From Astropecten irregularis (taxonomy: Eukaryota > Echinodermata > Asteroidea > Paxillosida > Astropectinidae), in contig OZ020244.1 of NCBI GenBank assembly GCA_963971285.1, forward strand, positions 34,968,001 to 35,032,000: a stretch of 64,000 bases of DNA, in the 5' to 3' direction. The notes beneath the pieces are model-generated. The model made no database searches. It saw only the letters and a list, made by a program, of their open reading frames with translations, and was not told where the DNA came from. Both the position numbers and the translations under genes were made by a program. Every line of letters begins with the position of its first letter. The first letter of the stretch is position 1. Shown here in pieces: positions 41,503 through 59,500 of the stretch.

Positions 41503-44500
41503 ATGTTTTACAGCAAAACTTTTCGCAATTTCCTCGACCGCTGGCCTGGAAAGAGAAGGTTGGGGTTGTATAGGTTCTTACCTATTTTCTTCGTGATCGG
41601 TGCGTCATTGGAATGGGTTATGATCAACGCTCGTATCGCACCTGGTGGAGAGACTTTCTGTACGTGTGTTTTTTTTTGGTTTCGTAAATCTTACCTGGTA
41701 TCTGTTTTATACCGTGCATTACGTAGGGTCTCAAAATCATTAGGCGAGGGTACCTGACTAAATCTTATGCAGAAACTTTACTTGGCGTTCGTACTGATTT
41801 TTAGGTTTTATGGGGGAACAGGAAGTGGGAAAATTTAGGAAGGGGAAGTCCTACAATTTCAAGGGCCAATTTATTCAATTGCTGGTTATTACTAGCGCTC
41901 CGCACTCTTGCGCTAAAAATAGCACCGGACCTCAGACAAACATTGTAACCATGCACACGTGCGTGGGTGTGCGCATGCATGTACAGTAACACTGTGCACG
42001 TGTGTGAGTCAATGTTTGTCTGACATCCAGGGATTTTGTGAAGTCATTAGCAGAGATGCCAAGTTCAAATTTTTTTCATGAGTGAGATTTTCATGACGCG
42101 GCGTCTCAGCGCGCGCACATGCGCGAAAGTGAGGGAGCAGAGCAACCAAGTAGGGGGAGGGGGTGTCCCCCCTCCCATGGTAGGGAGCTTTTTCAATTTT
42201 TAGCTCTTAATTAAGTTAATGGTGCGATCTGGTGCATACTTAAGTGACCTTTTTCTCTCTTTTTTTAATTTATTTTGAAAAACAAAAGGGAAACAATGCA
42301 ATAATGCTACTTTTTATTTTATTTTCCTTGTCGGGTCCCGATGCGTGAGAAATATGGGTGTCATGCGTGAGACCGTGAGACGGACCCTAAATGCGTGAGT
42401 CTCACGCACAATGCGTGAGACTTGGTAGCTCTGCATTGGATCAAACTTTGATTTACCATCATGGCTTGGAACTTAATCATAATGTACTACAGGTAAGTAG
42501 GGAGAGAATCCCAATGCTTGCCCAATTGAGCTTTCGATGTTCAAGTCTGGGCTGGGCATAATAAAAAAAATCGGAAAAAATTGAAAAAATTAAATAATAT
42601 TATTTTATATTATAATAAAAGGATAATGACTGATCAAACAACGAATCAGCAAACGACAGAGCAGATGGCTAGGCCAATTATTGCAAAGGGGTTTAGCCAT
42701 TGGACAAAAGATAACTTAAAACATTTTGTTGAAGAAACCAAAATTCCAATAGAAGATCCAGAAACGGATTTTACTAAAAGTGAATATATTAATGCTATTA
42801 CACGCAGACAACCAACCCCGCGTGGGTATAAAAGATGGGATTATTTAAAATTAAAAAATTATGTTCAAGATAATAATATTAGGTTAGATTTATCTAAAAA
42901 GCTCGATCACACTAGACGTGAATATATCAAAGCAATTAAAACGTTTACAAATCAATTTTAAAATTTAATAAAGAAAGATAATCAAGAACTTAGAGAATTA
43001 GCTAGAAAATATAACCTCAATGTTGTTCCAACGGGTCAAAGAGGACAAGTAATAAAACGAGATTATATCAAAACGATTAAAGAAAATTTATCATCGGAGG
43101 AAATTCGTGAAGCGACAAACTGGAGAGAAGTGAGATCTTTTCGTGGTAATCTTATAAATTTAGAAATAATTCTTCAAAGACAATATTCCGATCTAAATAC
43201 ATTTTTTAAACATCAGCATAAAAATATGATTAAAGAAGTAACAAAGATCTTTAGAAAAAAAGGTCAATTTAAGCTTGAATTTAGGATAAAACTCGAATAT
43301 ATAAAAGTTGAAGTTTTGGATGAAACATTACATGATTTTACTTTTCGAACCGAACAACATATTATTTTAAGGGAAGATGAAATAAATGAAAAGGTTAATA
43401 GCATTTTGTTCGAGCTAATAAATGTAGTGGAATCAAAAGATTTTGGACCCTCGGGTTTAACTTTAAATAAAATATTAGCGTTTTATATGAACTTTATTAA
43501 ATATACCAATGTTTCTGGTAGTTCATATATTGAACTTACGCCATTTATTAAACATAAAAAGGCTGTTGTTAGCGTACAAAATGACGACGATCAATGCATT
43601 AGATGGGCTATCAGATCTGCGTTAGGGTTATACAAGGATGAAATCAAAGAAAAGAAAAAAAATAACCCGAAATACAGAATTCACGATGAAAGAGTCAGTA
43701 CTTATAAGTTAAATGATGGGTTAGACTTTACCGGTATAGATTTTCCAACACCCTTAAAGCAGATTTCTAAAATAGAAAAACAAAATAATTTAAATATTAA
43801 CGTGTTTGGGTTAGATTGTAATGATGAAAAAGAAGAATTTCCTTATCCATCACATATCTCTAAAGAAACAAACGACATTCACATAAATATATTATTATTT
43901 ACTAGAGAAGTAGAAGAAGAAGGAGAAAAAATAATAAAAAGTCACTATGGTTGGATTAAGAATTTTTCGGCCCTATTCAGCAATGGTACATGTAAAGATG
44001 GGCATAAATTATATTTTTGTTACAGATGTCTATCGCATTTTTATACACCGCAAAAATTAAAAATTCACGATGAAATATGTCAAGGATTAACCGTTCATCC
44101 TTCAAGAGTCATCCTTCCAGAAGAAGATAAAAATATTTTAAAATTTAAAAACTTTAAAAATTTTCAAGATGCACCGTTTGTGATTTACGCGGATTTTGAA
44201 TGTATTTTAGAAAAATACAATGTAGAAAAGATAAAAAAAACTCAAAAGTTGAGCGTTCATAAACCCAGCGGTTATTCTTATGTTGTGGTAAGATTTGATG
44301 GAAAACTAATGAAGCAAAAAACCTATAGAGGGTGTAACGCTAGCGAGCATTTAATTAATTCATTGTTAAAAGAACAACGTAAAATTAATCAAATATTTAA
44401 TAATCCTATACCGATTGAAGAGATCGACGAATCATTAATGATGAGTAACGAGTGTTGGATTTGTGAAAAGGAAATATATCAAACTAGCGTTTTATATTGT

Positions 44501-47500
44501 AATTGTGAGATACCTCGTGAACCCAAAACCAAATCCGAAAAAGAAGAAAACGCGGTCACAAACAGTAAAGGTTATACAGATTTTTTGTGTTTAGAATGCG
44601 GTAAAAAAATTAATAAATTTAGAAAAGTTAGAGATCACTGCCACATCACGGGTAAATTTAGAGGAGTTGCACATGCACATTGTAACCTAAAACTTAAAAT
44701 AACAAATCGAACACAAATACCGGTTATTTTTCACAATTTTAAAAATTACGACGGTCATTTGATCATGCAGGGGGTAAGCGCTTACGTCGAAACGTTAAAT
44801 AATAAAATAAAAAAACGTGAAACGTGTATAGAAAAAATCAAAACGCGTATAGAAAAAATCGAAGTGTATAAAGAAAAACTCGAAACGCAAGAAATAAAAC
44901 TCCGCAAAAAAATTAGATACATAAAAGAAAAACGTGAAATTTTTAACGAGTTTCGTCGAAATATAAGAAAAGGTGATAATTCAAAAATAAAAACGTTTGA
45001 AGAAAAATACGGAATTACATTCGATAAGAAACTTAATATAAAAATTAACCAAAAAGCGAACGTTGTAATAGAGAAAAAATAAAACTAATTAATCAAAAAC
45101 TAAAAATAATCGATGAAAAAATAAATGTTAAAATCGATAAACTAAAAGAGGTTTTAAGTATATTAAATTATTATCAAAAGGAAAAAAACGTATTCGATAA
45201 TATATTTTGTATTCCTCAAAACTCGGAAAAATACATAAGTATTAGTATAGGTCAACTCCGTTTTATAGATTCGTTAAATTTTATGAACTCTTCCTTAGAA
45301 AAATTAGTCGCTGCTTGCCCTAAAGACGCATTTCATTTATTTAGAAAACATTTTAAAGATTATAATACGGATGATGTTGATCTTTTATTAAAAAAGGGGT
45401 GTTATCCATACGAATATATGGATTCCTTTGATAGATTTAAAGAAACTCAATTACCACCCATTGAAAAGTTTTATAGTAAGATAAAACTCAAAGGTATTAC
45501 GCGAGAAGAATATACTCACGCGGAGTTGGTTTGGAAAACTTTTAACTGTAAAACTCTAGGTGATTATCACGACTTATACGTGACCACGGATACGTTATTA
45601 CTCGCCGATGTGTTTCAAAACTTTAGAACCACTTGTAAGAAAACATATCGTTTAGATCCAGCGAAATATCTCACGGCACCGGGATTGTCTTGGGATGCTT
45701 TGTTGCTGCATTCTAAAATAGAATTAGAACTTTTAACCGATATCGAACAATATTTATTTTTTGAAAAAGGTAAAAGAGGTGGTTATTCTAGCGTGGGTAG
45801 TTGTAGGCATCACAAAGCCAACAATAAATATTTAAAAGATTACGATCCTGAAAAAGAATCTTCTTATTTACTTTATTTAGATGCGAACAATTTATACGGT
45901 TGGGCAATGAGTCAATCGTTACCCTACGCCGATTTTAAATGGTTAACCGATTACCAAGTCGCTAACTTTACGGTCGATCATATTTTAGGTTTAGCCGATG
46001 ACAACGACTACGGATTTATGTTGGAAGTAGATCTAGACTATCCTAAAGAGCTTCACGACTTACACAACGACTTACCCTTAGCCCCAGAGAACATAACCGT
46101 ATCGGCTGAATGGTTGAGCCCTTATCAAAAAGAATTGTTATCTAGCGGAGAAAAAGCTTCGCGAGATGACAGACTCATCGCTCATTTAGGACCTCGTAAA
46201 AAATATGTCATTCATTATAAAACGTTAAAACTGTATTTACAACTAGGATTAAAACTCACACGCGTACATCGTGTTTTACGATTTAAGCAAAAACCGTGGA
46301 TGCGGTCTTACATCGATAAAAATACACAACTCAGAAAAATAGCCAAATCAGATTTTGAAAAAGATTTTTTTAAACTCATGAACAATTCCGTTTTTGGTAA
46401 AACAATGGAAAATGTTCGAAATAGAATAGATGGAAATATTATTATAGACGATGATAGCGATTTATCGATAAAAAAAATATTAAAACTAGCATCCAAATCT
46501 AATTATAAAACATCAACTAAATTTACAGATTCTAATATAGGTTTCTTTGAAAGGTACAAAGAAAAAACGTATTTAAATAAACCCATCTATTGTGGAGTGA
46601 GTATATTAGATTTAAGCAAATCTTTTATGTACGACTTTTATTACAATCACTTGAAGAAAAAATATAACGATAACATAAATCTCATGTATACCGATACCGA
46701 TAGTTTATTATTGATCGTTAAAACCGACGATGTTTACGAGGATATTAAACGAGACTCAGAACTTTACGATCTATCTAATTATTCACCCACTCACCCTTTA
46801 TTTGACCCTAAAAACAAAAAAGTAATTGGAAAAATGAAAGATGAATACGGTGGCCAAGTAGTAAAACAAGCCATTTGTTTAAGATCAAAAATGTATGTGA
46901 TCTTAATACAAGATGATAAAGAGGTTAAAAAAATTAAAGGTATAACAAAAACCGTGACTGAAAAAAATATTAACTTTGAACATTTTTATAATTGTTTACA
47001 AAATAAAAAATCTCAAGAACATCAAATGAATATAATTCAATCTAACAAACATCAAATTTATACGCAAGTAAAAACCAAAACTTCATTGAGTCCTTATGAT
47101 GGAAAAAGATATATTTTATTCGATGGAATCAATACTTTAGCATTTGGCAATAAAAAAATTAAATATCAAGATTCTGGCAATTCGGTGTCATCTGGAACGA
47201 TTTGAAGTTCTTCTTTTACAAACGATCGTTTGGGTCCGTCTTTTAAGTAATAAAGCGTAGGACCTGTAGTAACTTTTTTACCACTCATGATTTTAAATTG
47301 ACTCGTTCTTTTTTCAATTTGATACATGTTAACGCTCCATATGGGATCGGTAGCCCTCCTCACCGTACCTCCTTCTTGTTCCCCTGGTTGATATAAATAA
47401 CGAACTAAAACATTAGTCGGAAGATCACTAACGTTTGTTTTTTGTGGTGATGAGGGTAATTGTTTAACCCGTTTTAACTTGATCGCTTGCGTAGGAGTGA

Positions 47501-50500
47501 TTTCTTTATCTTTTGAATCTCGAATCAATCGTGTTGTTTCTTCATTGAGGGATTTTATAACCTGGGGCAACCTCACCACCCATTCAACGTTTCTCGCCTG
47601 CGGATCAAGCATTTCTTGCACGTATTGATGACCAAATAATCTTTCGGCTAAGGTCCGGTTAAATCTTTCAACCACTCCTTGCGATCGATGCACACCCGGC
47701 ACACCTACGCTGATCTCTACGTCATGAGACTGAAACAACTTTTTAAAATCTCCTTTAAATTCTGTTCCAGCATCGATTTGCGCTAATTTAGGCCACGTTA
47801 AAGGCGAACGCTTGTAAATTTTAATAATCGCGTCTTTCACTTGACCGGCAACTTTAGAAGTTATGGGTTCAGCCTCTTTATACCGACTCGCCACGTCTAT
47901 GACCGTCAACGCGTATTTAAACGTTTTTTGTTTAACTAGATCCCAGGGTAAGTATAATATATCTAACTGATGTACGTAATTTGGTTCTAACCAATCACTC
48001 GACATTGCCGTCGGCCTGGGTACATATGAGGGAGGTGGTAAATAAATTTGCCAAACGGCTTGTTTTTTTAACCAAGATCTAACTTTTTGTTTATCAACCC
48101 CCGTTTTTTTATGCAAATGCGTGACAGCACCCTCACCTTTCCAATAACCTTTAGGACTGTAAAACAAACCTGAAAGCTGTTCTCTTTGTTTTTTATTTAA
48201 CTCACTCATTTTTATTTTATACATATCTATAAATAAAGAATCCCACTGCGGCTGTACCACCTAATACCCACACGAGTTCTCTAATTTGTTGATCATCACT
48301 CGGAGTATAAAAGTCACTAAGTTTTGGTTTAGGTGGTAATTCTAAATCGTAATTTTCACCCGTTATTTCGCTGTACACTCTAAGCGCTTCGTTTACGTTA
48401 CTAAACGTTCTTTCTGATAATTTTTGTTGTACCATACGTTTATTCAAATAATCGAGATATTTAACGCGTTGTTGTTCCCAATCTTCTTTGGCTCGCGCTA
48501 ATTTTTCTAATGCTAAGTCGTGTCTTTTTCGTTCTTTGTCAATTTGTTGTTTTGATAAACTGCTAAATAAAAAGTTACTACCGGTAAACGCTAACGCATT
48601 TACTACTGCCCCGCCAACCATCATTGCTATTCCTGCCATCTTTTTATTTATACTAATTTAAAAACCTTATATATTAAAAACACACTATTTTGAACTATGA
48701 ATCATTACGGTAAAAAACTAAACCCAATGAGGCGTCTTAAAATCCCTAAAGCCATTAAAGGCGAACGAAGAGAAGTGTCAATCACTCATAATCCAAGCAC
48801 GATTGCGGCTGGTCAAAAACTCATCGTTAAGTTTCCGCAATTAGGACCCGACGATGTTATCGTACCCGGTACTTCTAAACTCGCTTTTAAACTCGAGTTA
48901 GAAGGGTCTGATAATAATCGAACGGTGTTTAACAACTTATGTCGTAACTTAATACGCGAAATCAATGTTAGGCTTCAAGGTAACACAATCGTGAGTTATC
49001 GCGATGCGGATGTCTTTCACAATTTTAAAGATAACTGGCTGCACCCCTACATTACACGAAATATGGCTTATGTAGGCCTTGAAAAAGAAAACGTCACAAA
49101 ATTAAGATTAGGCGCGGCAGATGCTAATGCTGAAACTAATAGCGGAAAAGATAAAGCTATCGCAGACGCGTTTGGTAATCGATATTGTATTCCTTTAGAT
49201 ATTGAGCTTTTAACGGCACATCATCCTTTTTATCCTAGCAGTCTAAAGCAGCCCCTGACGTATGAATTAACATTTAACGATCACGATAAAGTCGTTAATA
49301 GCTCGGATACAAGTGCCCAATATTCAATTTCAGATTTAACGCTTGAATACGAAGTCGTCACTAACCGAGATTTGACACAAGAGCTAAAAAACAAACGAAT
49401 GAAATACTATCTTTTTGATCACGTACATAATTTAGAAACAAGATCGATCAACAAATCAGATACCTTATGGAACGTTATGATTAATCAACCGATTAAAAGT
49501 CTCAAAGGCGTTTTAATCTTATTTAGAGACCCAACGGTAAAAAACCCTCAAAGATTTTACAACCCCCACATTAGCAAAACCAGCATTACGGTTGAAGGAA
49601 AACCCAATCAACTTTTTTCACAAGGTATGTTTGAGTATCAGCACTGGCAAGAAGTTAATAAATTTTTTGGTGATAGCGATACCGAAAATGGTCAATCGAT
49701 TGTAAAAGATTTAAATTTAGTGGGTCTAGAAATGGCTGACTACTATAAAGATAAATACGGCCTGTGGCTAGATTTTCGCTCAACTGATGATAATAGTGCT
49801 CACGGAAGTGGAAGACGTTTAAACGACGGAGGAGGAATTCAGATTCAGATGACTCGAGAGGCTGAAACAGCGGGAGATTTAACGATGTTTGTATTTTTAG
49901 TCATGGATGCGCAATTAACCATTGAGGATGGAAATTTTAAGAATTTAGTTTTTTAAAAGCTTATTAAAATAAATGGAATCTTGTCATTGTGCTTTAATTG
50001 TAGGAAAAACAAACTCGGGAAAGACTAAATGGATTTTAGATTTATTGGAAACCGAATATCGTGATAAATTTGAATCGATCGTGGTCATTTGCCCGACCTT
50101 ATTTAAAAATAAAACTTATTTATCGAGGCTTTGGATATCAATGGATGAAAATGTATATTTGTGTGATTTAGACTTTGAAAAAATAACTTTAAATGAAGCC
50201 CTAGATTTGTATCAAAATATTTTAGATGGAATAAAAACATTATTTATCATAGATGATTGTTCGAGTCAGCAGGAAATAAAATATCGAAAAAAAACATGTG
50301 CGTTGAGCAAAATCGCTTTTTCTGGGAGGCATTATAACCATAGCTGTTGGTTATTAACACAAAAGTATAATTCGGTTTTAAAAGACTATCGTGAGAATAC
50401 AAGTTGGGTTGCGATGTTTTATACAAAAGATAAAACGAGTTTTGATATTGCATTAGATGAAAATGATGTTGTGTGTGATCAAAAAAGAGACGTAATTAAA

Positions 50501-53500
50501 AAACATTTGTGCGATAAAAAATATAGTAAATTGGTTATTAACACAGAACCTCCAGTTTCATATCAAGTTTTTGATTAACAACCTAATTTTTGTTATCATT
50601 TGTTGTATTTTGTTAAAAATTTGCTAATAACTACCTATCAAGTTATTTATAGCAATTTTTAATTTTGTTATAAATAAAAAACACCAATGCTATAATACGT
50701 TGATGTTATTATTAAGTTTGTTATCATTTGTTGTATTTTGTTAAAAATTTGCTAATAACTACCTTTCAAGTTATTTATAGCAATTATTAAGTTTGTTATA
50801 AATAAAAAACACTAATGCTACAATACGTTGATGTTATTATTAAGTTTGTTATCACTTTAAACTTAAGCTACTTATGTTATAATTTATTTTGCTTTAACAA
50901 AATTTATAAGTTGCTATATAGTAAAATGAACGACTTGACAACAATTATAAATAGCGATGTAAATACACCTTCAACAACAAACGACAGTAGTTATAAAGAT
51001 CGACTTTGTGGAATAGTTGCAGCAGGTGATTCAAAAAAATATTTTGGCAAAGAATACACCATCAAAGACATAGAAGCACTAACACCTGCAGATCAAGAAA
51101 AATTATTTAACCGGTATCAAGTTAAATTCGGTAAAGAAGTGGTAGCTACAGTGGGTAACTCAATTTTGAGTTTGTATGCACGAGCTATAGGTTTAGCAAC
51201 TCCGGCTGATATTTTAGGAATTAGAATTAGCTTAAATTCTGAGGAAAATTTAACCAATGATTTAAATAACGATCCTATCATTAGTAATAGCTTAGCTTAT
51301 GCACTTAGCGAGGTTTGTTACAAATATGGTGTCTATCTATCACCTTTGATAGCAACACTTATTACCACAAAACATTTAAACTTTAACAAATCCACAACAA
51401 ATAAAAATACTTATATAATAAATAATTCAAATGACAACTATGCATCAGGAGAAGGAGCAAGCTTTACCAACAGCACCCCCAACAACAGCACCAGCAGCAC
51501 CAACACCAATACCAACAACCCCAGTGACCCAAGTAACTAAAAAACAAACCGTAAAACCTAAAAACGCTAAACGCGTTGAACAAGGTAAACGCCTGGCAGA
51601 ACATAATAAAAAAATGAAAGAGCAATTAGCTAAAATGAAAACAGAAGAGACAGAGTCGGAGATTATTCAAAATACCCCTGATTCGAGATTACTTTATGTT
51701 GGCGGTTTAATTTTAGTAGGCGGTATAGGTTTTTTATTGTATAAATCATCAAACAAATCACCAGAAAACTCTAAACCTATTCAAATAACAAAACCAAGTC
51801 TACCACAGAGTCAACCCGAAGAACTTTTAATGGATTGATTTTTTAAATGTTTATATATTAAAAATGGATGAAACAACCGTAAATGATATTGCCGCCGCAG
51901 TTTATATTTGCGTTTTAATAGCAGCAGTCACCATTGGCTTTCCCTTTTATCAATCTTTAAAAAAGGGGAACTAATTTAAATTTTAAAAACCTATATAGTA
52001 AGAATGGCAAATACAAATATTGATATAAACGGAATAGCAAACACAGTTTATCATGGTGCAGTGTTAAGCCTTTTAACCATGGGATACTCGATGGTAAGTA
52101 AAAAATTACTCAAAATTAAATCGCCTGATTTAGATAGGCTTAGCGTAGAAGATGCGGCTAAACTAACCGCATTAGTCGGAGGTTCTTTAGCAACGCAACA
52201 GTGGCTGGTCACACAGGGAATCTTACCGGGTAGTATTATAAATAAACCTACAGTTTAAAATGTGTATATAATAAATAATTAAAGATGGATGATTTTGATT
52301 ATCAAGAAAATGATCCCCTGTTAAATGAAACAGAAGATAGAGACGATCAACAATTTAACAACCCCGCTTATGATAATACCGAACTCGATTCTGAAGAAAA
52401 TCAAGCTCGATTAAATAATTTACGAGGTGGTGATACACAAGAACAACTTCAAAAACAGTACATTGATAATTTTTATGCTAGCATAAGAAGTGAAGATTAT
52501 CAAACTTCCAAATTAATTAAATGGGAAAACTTTAGATTTAAAAAGGATGGAATATATTACAAAAAAGATGAAATTAAAATATTATTAACGTTGGAAAATG
52601 ATCCTACAACATTTGCTTCTGTGAAAACAATATATTCTAGAACAAAAGGTAAAGGAATTACAAATAGAACTCTTTTTATGCGAAAAGATTTAAAAATTGT
52701 TGATTTTACAACATCAAAACGCAGCAAAGAAGCAAGCACAGCGCTTCAACAAGCAAGTACATCTTTAACTGATATTCAAAGTGAAAACATACCCTTACAA
52801 GATTTACCACAAGCAGCTGATCAAACGAGTAATGTTATAGAAGAACTCGAACAAGAAACCAATATTGATGAACAAAGCGAATTTAATATCAGAGAGCTAC
52901 GCGGTTTAGACAAAACATTACAATCGATTAAAGGAAATTTATTATTAGAACAAACAAAGCTAACTGAGTTAAATGAGAGAAAAGAAAGAGTTAAAAAAGA
53001 ATTAGACGAAGCAAAAAAAGCAGAAGATGAAGAACAAATAGGATCACTCACAGAAGAGTTAGAAAATATAAACATTGAAATACGAGAAAGGTCTAATAAT
53101 ATCATTAGAGAATCAGATAAAATAAAATCTCAAATCAATCGCGTCAAAGAAACAATCAATATAATGTTAGACAGTGATGTAACGCTTAGAGAAAAAATTA
53201 AGTTTTTATTTAAAGAGCAAGGTGTCACGATCGCGAGTATTTTAGCAGCAATTTCTATGGCCATCAGCACACTGGTAAGCTCGGTGGTAGCAGCCGTTAG
53301 AGGTGTAGGTATCCCAACCCCAGAACCACCCGCGCCTAAACCTGAGCCACCATCAGGAGGTGGCATCAAAGAGTGGGTACACAAGCACTTGGAAAACTTA
53401 GCAAACGCTTTGAAAAAATTAGGGTTAGCCGCATTAGGTGCGCTGCCGGGGGTCATTGGTAGCGTCATAAGTTGGTTACTAAATGTTTTAAGTAAATCAG

Positions 53501-56500
53501 TTGGCTGGCTAGCAGAACACGTGTGGGCTTTATTTATAGGTGCAGGTGCTTTAATTATTGCTTATATTAAAAATAATTGGTAGTTTTGTTTTTTAACAAA
53601 ATAATAAAAAAAAATAACCCCCAAGCTCTTTTGAGCTTGGGGGTATTTTTTTTGGTTTAAATATTTATATTTTTCTAAGTCAAAATTTTGTAGACTAAAA
53701 CTCCTATCGCAATGATTGCAACTGTTCCTATCGTTAAAGATAATTTTTCATCTTGATGAATGTCTAAAGATGCTTTAGGATTTGACTCTGAGGTTTTAGG
53801 TATAGGTGATAAACGTGGTGTAGGTTCTTCTGTTGGTTCTTGAGTGGGTTTGGGTTCAAGGGTTGGCTGAGGATTAAAGTCATCAACTTGTATCGGAGCG
53901 TTTAAGGTTGGTTGAAATCCCGGTTTAGCGGTTAAAGGTGCAATTTGCAAGTTATTATTGTAACCATCGTGTATGCCTACCCTTAAATCCATATCTGACG
54001 GAATGAGGTATAACCCGGGTCTTACGACAAAGTTGAGTGGAGTTTTAGCATACTGCAGTGAATCTTGAAATTGATTGATACTCTGCTCTAAATCTGGTTC
54101 GCTATTAATAAGACTTTCTACGATGGTAACAAACTGATGCTGTGCATCTAAACCGGTTCCCGGGGTTAATGCACTGGTTTTTGTTTGTGCTTGTGCACCT
54201 AAAAGCGCGTACACGTAAGCCCTAATCGATTCGTTAATTTTTGTAATTCCAACATCGGTAAAAGAACTCGTCTTTGAAATAAAGTCTGTCCAAGCACCTA
54301 AAACATTATTGGATTGTTCAAGGTAAGTGACCGTATAGGTACTCGCGTGACCCGATCCTTTTGGTGGATCCATTAAACCAAATCCCATAAAAGTTGAGCC
54401 TGCATACGTACCGTAGTTTACACCCAAGTCGTGGGGGTCATAGTTTTTCCCCGGCACTGGAACCGACCCCGAATTGTAGTAAAAAGCAGTACCCAAGCCA
54501 TTTGAGGTCGTATCTCTCGTTTGTTTAAAAGACTTGCTTCGATCGATGCCAAATACGCGGCACGTGTCCGTAAAAGCTCTCGTATCATAACGGTTATTTA
54601 ACGCGTTAAATACATCATCACCAGGTATAGGTGCTACCAAATTATAAAATATTTTTCGTATAGTATAATACACGTGAAAATGAAACAGCGATGAAATATA
54701 TTGGTTTTTATTGTGGAGGAGGTCAAGACCTACTCCACACGCGGTCGTGGCACAATAAATCGCAAAGTTGAATTGGTTTTGATAAAAGGACAAAGGGTTA
54801 GTTTGCCATCGTTCGATTGCTTCGTCCGTTTTAACGCGTGGTAATTTATACGCGGTTGACATATCTTTAAATTGTACAAAAAAAGTATGATTTTTATTGA
54901 CGATAATAGCTAAAGCGCCTAAAGAGTTTCCCATTTATAATATAAGTCTTTTTATAATAAAAGTAGAGTAAGAATGAGCGGAATACAACACACATTTTAT
55001 TTGACAAAAAACGAACAAACGTTTAAATTGCAAGAGGTGATTGATAATTTAGATGGCTCAAAACAAATTCGCGTTAAAAATCTCGTGTTTACGGTAGGCT
55101 ATTTTAACATAACTAAATCCAGTGAGATTACTTGGGAAAAGGAGATAGATGGGCAACCCGCTTATACTAACGGTAGGTCTAGAGACAATAGACAAACTGA
55201 TAAAAGCTCACAACTACAGACAAAGCCATTAGAACTGACCCCTGAGATAATGAATCAATTTCGTTTATCGATGACAACTGAAGAAATTCAACAAAGCAAA
55301 AAAGAAGTCATAGCACGCATTATTACACAGATGTTTGACGGATATGATACTGAAATTCTTAACGAAGTGGAAATAAAAATACAAGAAGAAATACAGGTCC
55401 TCAGACAACGAAAACAAACCCTAGAATTAGCCAGGGATAGACTTGATGATGAATTACAAAATTATGTTAACTATGTAATACATTTATTAAATAAAAGAAT
55501 AGACTATATCATAGAAGGCCAAGTATTAGCCACAAATTTACTTCGATATGGATACAACAATGACAATCAAGAAAAAACAGAAAATATGCGTTTACCACAA
55601 ATTAAAAACAGCCTCGTTGTTTTAGGACATAAAGAGCCAATCGTAAATGCGCTACATCCGGTGAGTGAGGTTACGGCTTTGCCCGAGGGCAAATCAGGAA
55701 GCATCATTATTTTACCTGGATTTTATGGTATCGATTGGTTCGAGTCATTGATAAACGCGATACCGGGTGTGAGCTTTAAAGTCTATAGAGAAAGTAAAAC
55801 GGTGACCTTAAGGGTCACTGATATAAACCTTAATCTACGTTTAAATCGAGAAGTTTCTAATTTGCTCAATTTACCCAAAGGAAGGTTAATCCCAAATGTC
55901 ATTTATAAGGGTGATTACGATATTAACCCATTTAACATTACGTTTATTCATTGCGAGCAGTTAAACACGAGTGATAATTTTTACAACGGGTTTCCTTCAA
56001 ATATGTTATCATTTTATCACACAAGCCAAACAAACCAAACTCACGTTGGGAAAACATTAAAAAACGGTAAAATTAATAAACTTGCCTTTTCAATTAAAAA
56101 CGAAGAAGGAAAAATCATCAATAACAAAGGCGCGGGGATTTTAATCGAATGTGAAATAATTTAAAAACGCTTATATATTAAAAATATGGCAACCGTAAAT
56201 GTAAATGAAATAAAACCTTTATATCCTGATCTAAACTTAAACAGCGGTGATGATATTAAAGACGAAACTAAAATTTATCGACTTCAAAAAATTGAAGATA
56301 TTAAATCTCAAATCTGTAAAGAAAGAAACTCGCGCGAGGTTTCTTTTAAAAAGTTAAAAAGGTGGATCTCTGCGATTCAATATGTAGAGCACGGGGTTGA
56401 AGTACTGGGGGTCACTGCAGCCGCGATAGGGATCCCCGCATTAATGGGTGTTATTAGTGCCCCAATTGGCTTAGTCTTAGAGGGTACTAGCATAGGTGCC

Positions 56501-59500
56501 TTTGGATTTTACGCGGTACTTAAATACGCAAGCAAAAAATTAGCGGTAAAGAGTAAAAAACACGATCAGATTAAAATTTTAGCAGATGCAAAGTTAAACA
56601 CGATAGATGAATACGTGTCAAAGGCCATCGAAGATGGTGATATTTCTCACGAAGAATTTATATTAATTACGTCAGAACTTAAAAAATTTAACGACTTGAA
56701 AGAAAAAATAAGATTAAAAACTTCTACAAAGTTAGAAGAAGCTAAACATTTAAATAAAGTTGAATTTGAACAACAAGTTGAAGAAAAGGCTAAAGCGATG
56801 GCGAGTGATTTACTCGCCAAAGAAAAAAAAGAGCTTATGAAAAAACTTGGAAATTAAGTTTAAGTTTGACAAAGTCGTTTAAAAACGACGAGAGTAAACC
56901 TCCGAGTTATAAAGAAAGTCAAGTGAGAGTTACCCCTACAGCTCCTCCTCTTTAAAAGTTTCGTTGTATCTTTTTAACGCTTGATTAAAATATTTTAATT
57001 CTACTTGAAATAACTTTTGTACTGTTTCTTGGGTTACGTTAGAAACATTTTTTAGATAACATACAGCCATTAACGACCTGAGTGGATGACCCCTAGATAT
57101 TTTTCCCTTTAATATTTGTTTTAATTTAAACTCGACGAGTTTAAGGTCACACATGATGTTGTGAGTGCACATACCTATCTCATCCATTTATATTTAAAAA
57201 AAATTAATTAATTATTATTTTTTTTTTTTTACTGAATCATTTTTTTTCACCCAATACTTTACTCAGAATGCGTGGGCGTTTTTATAAAGAGTGTAAAGGG
57301 GCCGGGGTCTATGCCTTAAACTCATCAAAGAGGGCCAACAACACTATTGACCCCCTTTTTTGGGGTACCGGGTTCAAAGTTTAAAGGTTTTTTTTTTTTC
57401 ATGTTTTTTTATGTCAGGATATTGTTTTTTATGTTTCTTATTAAATATCACCCCAAATATTCAACGAGAAACATTTTCTTTCTTTTTCTATTTTTTTTTC
57501 ATGTTTTTTTATGTCAGGATATTGTTTTTTATGTTTCTTATTAAATACCCACATCAAATATTCAACGAGAAACCTTTTTTTTTTTTCTATTTTTTATTCA
57601 TATTTTTTGTTATGTTAATTTCAATTTTACAGACCGTGCGTCGAACCCGGTACCCCATGGTTGCAAACCGCCGAGCTTATCCACTGGGCTATCCTCCCAG
57701 CCCCGACTGAAAATGGTTTTTTAATTTGATATATATTATACTCGAAATGGTGCAATAACAACGATGACGACACAAAGGACGAGTCTATTTTTTGAGGGGT
57801 GTTTGACTGTGATTGTGACGGTTTACACAGGTTCAGTCATGTGTTATATTTCAATAACAAAACCGAGCGCTTTTAGGAATTTAACCTTTGTGTCAGCAGA
57901 TGACTAAGCGTTTTACACTACGTTCAGTCATGAATGAAATTTGAATAACAAAAACCCTGTTTACGCTGGGGACAACCACGCGTGACATTGAATGGCTGTT
58001 TTTTTCAAGCGAGTGTTGTGTATACACTTAAGGTAAATAACCTTTAGTGCATTGTCAAGTGCATATGAGTAGTGTACATGCATACGACGTAAAAAAAAGC
58101 CACATCCTAATTTGGATGTGGCTTAATTTAGTGTGTAAATAAAAATGATAATTTTTTTGTTATTTTTTTTGGCTTTCTTTTTTATATTCTAGATTTAGTC
58201 ATCAATATCTTCAATATCAAACATGACATTAGTGGGGATTTGTATACTTTCATATTGCCTAATAAAAGCTTGTTCTAATTTAAATCTGATACTTGCACCA
58301 AATCCACTATTTCCATGAGAACCAAAAAATATATCATTACAGATGAGAACAGGTGTAACTTTACATGATTTATTCATATATTCATCGATGTTATCAATCT
58401 TTTTCTTTTTAGAATCAAACAATTTTGTATATTGTTTTAATTGATTTCCTTTTCCATATGATTTAAGTTTAATATACATTTTTTTGTTTTTATCATCATA
58501 AATTGGTTTAACACTTTGTTTTCCCATGTTTATATACATAGTTCTGGTTATTTTTGGTATATTTTTATCTTTATCAGATTCAATATATTTAGTTACTGTA
58601 CATCTCATTTTATCAAAGTATTTAACAATTTCATCACAATCATTTTGTAAATTATATACAATTTGATAGCCAGTTGTGTTGTCTGGATTTTTTTCTTCAC
58701 CAAAAGTATTAATTGTATTTATTCCAAAACAAAAATTTGTTGGTAACATAAAAATTAAATTACATTCTTTATCATCATGTTTATAAGTAATTTTTGATTT
58801 AGCACATTCTACTACTTCTTGTGAAGTTTTAATCACTGGATTTATTATTAAATTTTTCTCATTAAACAACCCATAATGATTATATTCACTTTTATCTGCG
58901 TTTTTATATAGATCATGTTTTTCAGTTACAAAGTATGTATGTTTTATTGTTTTGTTTTGTTCCATCTTATTTATAATAATATAAAATAATATTATTTAAT
59001 TTTCTCATTTTTTTCCGATTTTTTTTATTATGCCCAGCCCAGACTTGAACATCGAAAGCTCAATTGGGCAAGCATTGGGATTCTCTCCCTACTAGGTAAC
59101 AGTAACAGGATGCATAAAAGTAAACTACATTGTATTGCAAGAAAGAAAATTGTACCTTTTTCACTGAAATATGATATTGGAGAAATTTCTTGAATCTAGC
59201 GTTAGGGTTTTCAGGACTCGGGAACATTTGCTGAAAGTTAAACATATCGTTTGGGTTGGGAGCAATAGAAGTTCTAAAAAGTTGCTTTCCTTTCCTTATT
59301 TCCTATAAATAACTTTATAGTTTTATAACCACTTGTCCTTTCTTTTATAGTTTTGGGAACCACTTGTCCACAATAACCAACAATGTATTTAACCCACCAT
59401 GGAGGTAGGCTTCCTCCATGAACCCACTAGGAAATTAAGAATTATTCATTATAATTAGGTGCTAGCACTCAGTTTATGAATCGCAATCTGAAAACCTGGG

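Follow-up and report, generated by a model that had tools for sequence, protein, structure and literature searches.

How an animal Polinton starts the messages of its genes is the question raised by an AT-rich element of this kind in a stretch of 64,000 nucleotides (nt) from the Astropecten irregularis genome (contig OZ020244.1, positions 34,968,001 to 35,032,000; hereafter the window, within which all positions are counted). A first-pass annotation had placed a shared TATA-like motif directly before almost every start codon of the element. The motif is real, although "almost every" was too strong: its strict form, TATATWNTAA, precedes 9 of 16 starts. It is probably a two-part core promoter belonging to this family of AT-rich Polintons, lying at the transcription start and giving nearly leaderless messages. 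Expression of virion genes in animal Polintons is apparently undescribed, and a promoter that abuts the start codon makes a concrete prediction, namely message 5′ ends within ~30 nt of the ATG.

The starts tested were those named in the first-pass annotation plus that of the ATPase, with PolB taken at 43,226 and 42,626 treated as a gene of its own. Within the 40 nt upstream, TATATWNTAA was present at 42,626, 48,697 (capsid), 50,926, 51,431, 51,864, 52,004, 52,285, 54,934 and 56,186, the last eight as had been listed; dinucleotide shuffles gave a mean of 0.45 such starts and a maximum of 4 in 3,000. The pattern is nearly exclusive to starts. It occurs ten times in the element on both strands, and nine of these fall in the 40-nt windows upstream of starts, which make up 1.9% of the sequence. 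TATATANTAA occurs seven times in 2 x 16.6 kb of the element; all seven copies are in sense orientation and within 40 nt upstream of a start. Six of 468 other ATGs have the motif in the 40 nt upstream, and each of the six lies just downstream of one of the motif starts. The genome-wide count of TATATAGTAARA is swamped by background (380 versus 484 for the reversed control). Motif discovery on the 40-nt upstreams, in which real and shuffled sets received equal effort, gave z 4.0 at width 12 and z 7.4 at width 14, values reached by 0 of 40 shuffled sets. In leave-one-out scoring, 10 of the 16 upstreams ranked within the top 5% of 1,576 non-upstream windows, a background that is not AT-matched; the six misses include 50,926 (0.11) and 52,004 (0.051), despite their strict cores. 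The other starts fared unevenly: the integrase, 54,974 and 58,965 carry looser variants without the strict core, the coiled-coil gene at 48,639 has a weak form (background fraction 0.087), as does the ATPase (0.068), and 57,187 is preceded by an A/T run (0.054). PolB at 43,226 lacks the motif (0.60); the annotation may have meant 42,626.

The motif has two parts. In the box 5′ of the nine cores, which was not selected for, A occupies position -7 in 9/9 sites, and A at -6 and T at -10 are each found in 8/9; TTTAAA is found within 16 nt upstream of the core at five of nine sites (shuffled mean 0.62, P 0.0005). From core start to ATG the distance is 10–29 nt, with a median of 14 (Table 1). We propose that a TTTAAAA-like box is followed, 2–5 nt on, by TATATWNTAA at the transcription start, and that each message would begin within or just after the motif, with a leader of roughly 0–28 nt before the ATG. 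This initiator-type reading is favored because a TATA box at -30 would leave the ATG untranscribed in eight of the nine genes. The two outermost genes take their upstream sequence from the terminal repeats. As default reader we envisage host RNA polymerase II (Pol II), assisted by a factor from the element or the host. Pfam recognised no RNA polymerase subunit in the 17 open reading frames (ORFs) scanned, most of which match nothing, and a very divergent one is possible; nor did it show an element-encoded transcription factor, and a single-sequence fold of 58,965 reached a predicted local distance difference test (pLDDT) score of only 28. Because the strict form is found at the capsid gene and at most genes to its right, it may mark a late class, to which 42,626, at the left end and also with the core, would belong. 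Among the capsid gene and the strict-motif genes to its right, the capsid alone has an identified role; the unnamed ones may have virion roles. Individually initiated, almost leaderless messages, as the annotation had suggested, fit this geometry best, including that of the divergent genes, and are in that respect partly supported.

Table 1. Motif sites, genes, repeats and hairpins of the element, in window positions
Feature	Position	Strand	Detail
Polinton element	42,496-59,093		AT-rich; animal genome
Left terminal inverted repeat	42496..42619	+	124 nt, 98%; inner end immediately 5′ of gene 42,626
Right terminal inverted repeat	58970..59093	-	124 nt, 98%; inner end immediately 5′ of gene 58,965
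Core TATATTATAA	42606..42615	+	starts 20 nt before ATG 42,626
TTTAAAAACCT-TATATATTAA	48657..48677	+	core start 29 nt before ATG 48,697 (capsid)
TTTATAAGTTGC-TATATAGTAA	50903..50924	+	core start 11 nt before ATG 50,926
Core TATATAATAA	51412..51421	+	starts 19 nt before ATG 51,431, within ORF 50,926-51,540
TTTAAATGTT-TATATATTAA	51842..51861	+	core start 12 nt before ATG 51,864
TTTAAAAACC-TATATAGTAA	51982..52001	+	core start 12 nt before ATG 52,004
TTTAAAATGTG-TATATAATAA	52254..52274	+	core start 20 nt before ATG 52,285
ATTATAAAAAGACT-TATATTATAA	54935..54958	-	core start 10 nt before ATG 54,934
TTTAAAAACGCT-TATATATTAA	56160..56181	+	core start 14 nt before ATG 56,186
Looser variant, integrase ATG 48,209	48211..48224	-	background fraction 0.013; overlaps stop of coiled-coil ORF
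Looser variant, ATG 54,974	54948..54961	+	background fraction 0.002
Looser variant, ATG 58,965	58973..58986	-	background fraction 0.029; within right terminal inverted repeat
PolB region	43226..47205	+	two ORFs, 43,226-45,082 and 45,283-47,205; no motif at 43,226
rve integrase	47166..48209	-	PF00665, E 5.5e-8, 33.4 bits vs cut-off 32.6 (scanned from 48,224)
Major capsid protein, predicted double-jelly-roll fold	48697..49956	+	alignment, AlphaFold2 model, Foldseek
A32-type packaging ATPase	49973..50578	+	PF04665, E 2.8e-10; no strict motif
Perfect 12-bp GC-rich hairpin, then T-run	53617..53644		between convergent stops of 52,285 and 54,934
Perfect 11-bp GC-rich hairpin	58097..58124		71 nt after stop of 58,965

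Relatives were sought in the same genome (475.7 Mb, 168 contigs), which has 43 matches to the WNT family, a marker of animals. In three of 20 fetched copies of the window family, six starts were compared and TATATANTAA is kept at 6/6, 6/6 and 5/5 of them (one start lying outside the piece); the substitutions seen in these copies affect the Y or the N or lie beyond the core. A related AT-rich family is represented by three listed places (L081, L082 and L083), in all of which the capsid ORF is broken by one or two stops. Its identity to the window family is 50–52% for the capsid, 59–60% for the coiled-coil protein and mostly ~63% for the ATPase. L082 has the gene order coiled-coil, capsid, ATPase, 50,926, 51,431, 52,004 and 52,285; in L081 and L083 parts are deleted or rearranged. 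This family has its own AT-rich element abutting orthologous ATGs, in favor of the promoter reading: TTATTATAAATG stands at 3/9 starts, with TAATAATAAAAATG or similar AT-rich ends at others. TTATTATAA occurs four times in L082, where three copies abut an ATG, and three times in L081, where two abut an ATG and the third is 5 nt away from one; L083 has none. As a separate observation, gene 58,965 in L081:4032-4799 is 95.7% identical to that of the window family although the capsid of L081 is only ~52% identical, which suggests recombination between families or a neighboring insertion.

A third, GC-rich group (52.6 and 54.1% GC in the two copies measured; integrase 50–53% and ATPase 44–46% identical to the window family) is arranged differently. 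Upstream of the capsid ATG, 19 of 20 of its copies have T(A/G)TATT(A/G)AAC, starting at -42 to -51 and forming one arm of an inverted repeat, and its start contexts are of the type ACCATGG. The spacer between the inverted promoter arms is flipped in L068 and L069 relative to L067. One host holds at least three upstream layouts; these may be three promoter grammars, in which case Polinton lineages within one genome would differ in how their promoters are laid out. Capsid queries P0004, P0008, P0012, P0054 and P0071 returned the window family and the GC-rich group only, and no further AT-rich family, among the best 97–100 scored of 246–260 candidates each, and rarer families may be missed; query P0005 additionally matched the related AT-rich family. 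The window family is ~44% identical to query P0054. In IMG/VR no relatives were confirmed for the capsid (single sequence and profile), 54,974, the integrase or PolB, and 54,974 had no protein relative at E<=0.001.

Several observations weigh against the promoter reading. TATATWNTAA was picked after inspection of the data, a post-hoc choice answered by the leave-one-out scoring and the unselected upstream box, and it is missing at 7 of 16 starts. The comparison with shuffled upstreams proposed by the annotation succeeds at widths 12 and 14 and is weak at 8 (z 2.0) and 10 (z 1.8), each reached by 2 of 40 shuffled sets. One of the three same-family copies inspected, the one with a start outside its piece, has GTG for the ATG at 51,431. 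In the related AT-rich family TATATWNTAA occurs once in L081, once in L082 and never in L083, at no listed start; discovery there is borderline (z 0.5, 2.5, 3.0 and 2.0 at widths 8–14), and at widths 8–12 it gave A/T runs, not TTATTATAA. Orthologous genes of the GC-rich group have neither motif (0/14 starts tested in two copies), and none of the 20 GC-rich copies fetched, of 37 places listed outside the window family, has either one within 40 nt upstream of the capsid ATG. Absence from related copies, which the annotation itself had named as telling against its proposal, is what the GC-rich families examined display. The initiator reading, finally, is drawn from geometry, with predicted start sites.

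Base composition combined with start-codon context, by which AT-rich gaps and an A-rich stretch before the ATG would mimic a motif by chance, is an unlikely explanation. The start upstreams are indeed 78–100% AT, and the weak discovery at short widths, together with the borderline result in the related AT-rich family, is what such mimicry would give; yet when other 40-nt windows at or above 75% AT are scanned on both strands (overlapping, in steps of 5), TATATWNTAA appears in 2/1,536 in the element and 0/2,170 in the host DNA of the window. The reversed and complemented patterns occur in 0/16 upstreams each and the reverse complement in 2/16, shuffles reach at most 4/16, and the upstream box is fixed. 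Base composition alone does not account for the motif. It is likewise improbable that an ordinary host Pol II TATA box lies about 30 nt upstream, with very short leaders or with true starts further downstream. The capsid core here starts at -29, and the arm at -42 to -51 in the GC-rich capsid genes fits TATA geometry, but a start 28–31 nt downstream falls inside the ORF for eight of nine cores. Given real ATGs, a TATA box 25–31 nt upstream of a message containing the ATG is possible for one of nine, and the annotation's remark that the motif sits closer than an ordinary animal promoter holds on that same premise. The N-termini from ATGs 48,697 and 52,004 align with relatives from their first residues, and the former is backed by 19 aligned homologues; the ATGs of the other motif genes are less well supported.

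The motif might instead serve the 3′ end of the gene before it, as a poly(A) or termination signal, to which we assign only a very slight probability. AATAAA lies inside some sites (51,431; 52,285) and within 60 nt after the stop in 8/16 genes versus 12.3% of random windows, a surplus due in part to the next gene's start region containing AATAAA, as in at least three of those eight (after coiled-coil, capsid and 52,004). The motif also precedes divergent genes (48,697; 54,934), where neither re-initiation nor a poly(A) site of an upstream gene is an explanation; the sites of 50,926 and 51,431 fall within upstream ORFs, and none of the TATATANTAA sites is at convergent 3′ ends. Very unlikely, too, is a helper late promoter, in which a large DNA virus would supply the RNA polymerase and transcribe the element in the cytoplasm, as happens with virophages. 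Such a promoter would match the asfarvirus late layout, with TATATA at -1 to +5 and TATTT at -15 to -11 (accessible parts of PMC5294985 and PMC7163114); promoter motifs that differ between lineages of one host have a parallel in the types of endogenous virophages (likewise PMC8547959 and PMC10945749), and the two perfect hairpins close to the 3′ ends of genes are reminiscent of the Mimiviridae hairpin signal (PMC4402537, in part). However, no helper is known, and the host genome gave no Capsid_NCLDV or Pox_VLTF3 match, though the control searches were silent as well. The AATAAA enrichment fits nuclear 3′ processing, TTTTTNT is not enriched (3/16 versus 15.7% of windows), and no comparable 3′ hairpin was recognised in the pieces of relatives searched, the corresponding places lying outside most of them. 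In its fullest form this idea would make the AT-rich Polintons helper-dependent virophage-like viruses, with asfarvirus-style initiators and hairpin 3′ signals, and leave the GC-rich ones to host Pol II; we regard it as highly improbable. If a helper polymerase did read the motif, animals would have a virophage-like system.

A start-abutting promoter remains the reading we prefer, and the element itself has several hallmarks of a Polinton/Maverick. Its terminal inverted repeats are flanked by a 5-bp direct repeat, AGGTA, on either side, i.e. a short target duplication, and both an rve integrase and an A32-type ATPase are recognised by their Pfam profiles. The AlphaFold2 model of the capsid protein, built from an alignment of the window copy with 19 homologues (from 120 listed of 439 found), has a mean pLDDT of 82.5 and matches iridovirus, Paramecium bursaria chlorella virus 1 (PBCV-1), mavirus and Sputnik capsids in Foldseek (E 2e-11 or better, template-modelling (TM) score ~0.5–0.6), as expected of the double-jelly-roll capsid of the group. 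The PolB-like region has no Pfam PolB match at E<=0.01 and is 50% identical to an ORF of L079; in the window copy it is broken into two ORFs. The best 100 of 249 candidate places scored with the capsid in the host genome, window copy included, are all 97–100% identical, and a stop interrupts the capsid ORF in 3/100, leaving 97/100 without one; the window family is young and recently expanded.

The motif helps to choose start codons and to find tiny genes, as with ORF 51864-51974, which encodes 36 amino acids with a hydrophobic stretch, has its own motif and matches nothing in Pfam. ORF 42,626, counted as a gene apart from PolB, encodes 111 amino acids. The ORF of 50,926 can be read in frame from as far upstream as 50,815, which gives it a hydrophobic N-terminus; the extension (50,815-50,926) is also present in both GC-rich copies read and is a separate overlapping ORF in L082. 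At 50589-50857, a stretch of ~128–141 nt forms tandem repeats in most copies compared, apparently in varying number. The two perfect hairpins of Table 1 are possible terminators or processing signals. Hairpins with at least 5 G/C per arm number three in the element versus 0–1 in 10 shuffles, the third lying in a coding region; with at least 3 G/C per arm there are six versus 1–6 in shuffles, which is not unusual.

Among known systems, the element shares with animal Polintons/Mavericks its terminal inverted repeats, rve integrase, A32-type ATPase, double-jelly-roll capsid and PolB-like region. Neither a gene-by-gene promoter motif nor the promoter of animal Polintons as a paper's topic was found in the Polinton, Maverick and adintovirus literature searched (titles and abstract starts, mostly of non-subscription papers), and the accessible part of PMC12220804 does not mention the word "promoter". 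In mavirus and endogenous mavirus-like elements, which are relatives of Polintons, many genes are likewise preceded by a single small motif (TCTA or type-specific), the type-specific motifs occurring within one host (accessible part of PMC8547959); they differ in having a protist host and a motif in common with a known giant virus, whereas the present element resides in an animal and has no known helper. The poxvirus late signal TAAAT(G), as outlined in partial sources, also abuts or overlaps the ATG, and some element starts end in TAAATG or TAAAATG; the core differs, the constant part here being TATATWNTAA. Linear cytoplasmic plasmids of yeasts have promoters close to the ATG and very short leaders, and are read by their own polymerase. 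Closest in layout are the late promoters of the asfarvirus African swine fever virus (ASFV), which combine TATATA at the initiation site, an upstream AT box and short AT-rich leaders with a late median of 9 nt (PMC5294985, PMC7163114, in part). The likeness to late promoters of cytoplasmic DNA viruses drawn by the annotation holds for this layout; the polymerase is virus-encoded in asfarviruses, whereas Pfam recognised none in the element's ORFs scanned, and the start here is predicted from geometry. In geometry the motif resembles such late promoters, a resemblance that does not imply membership.

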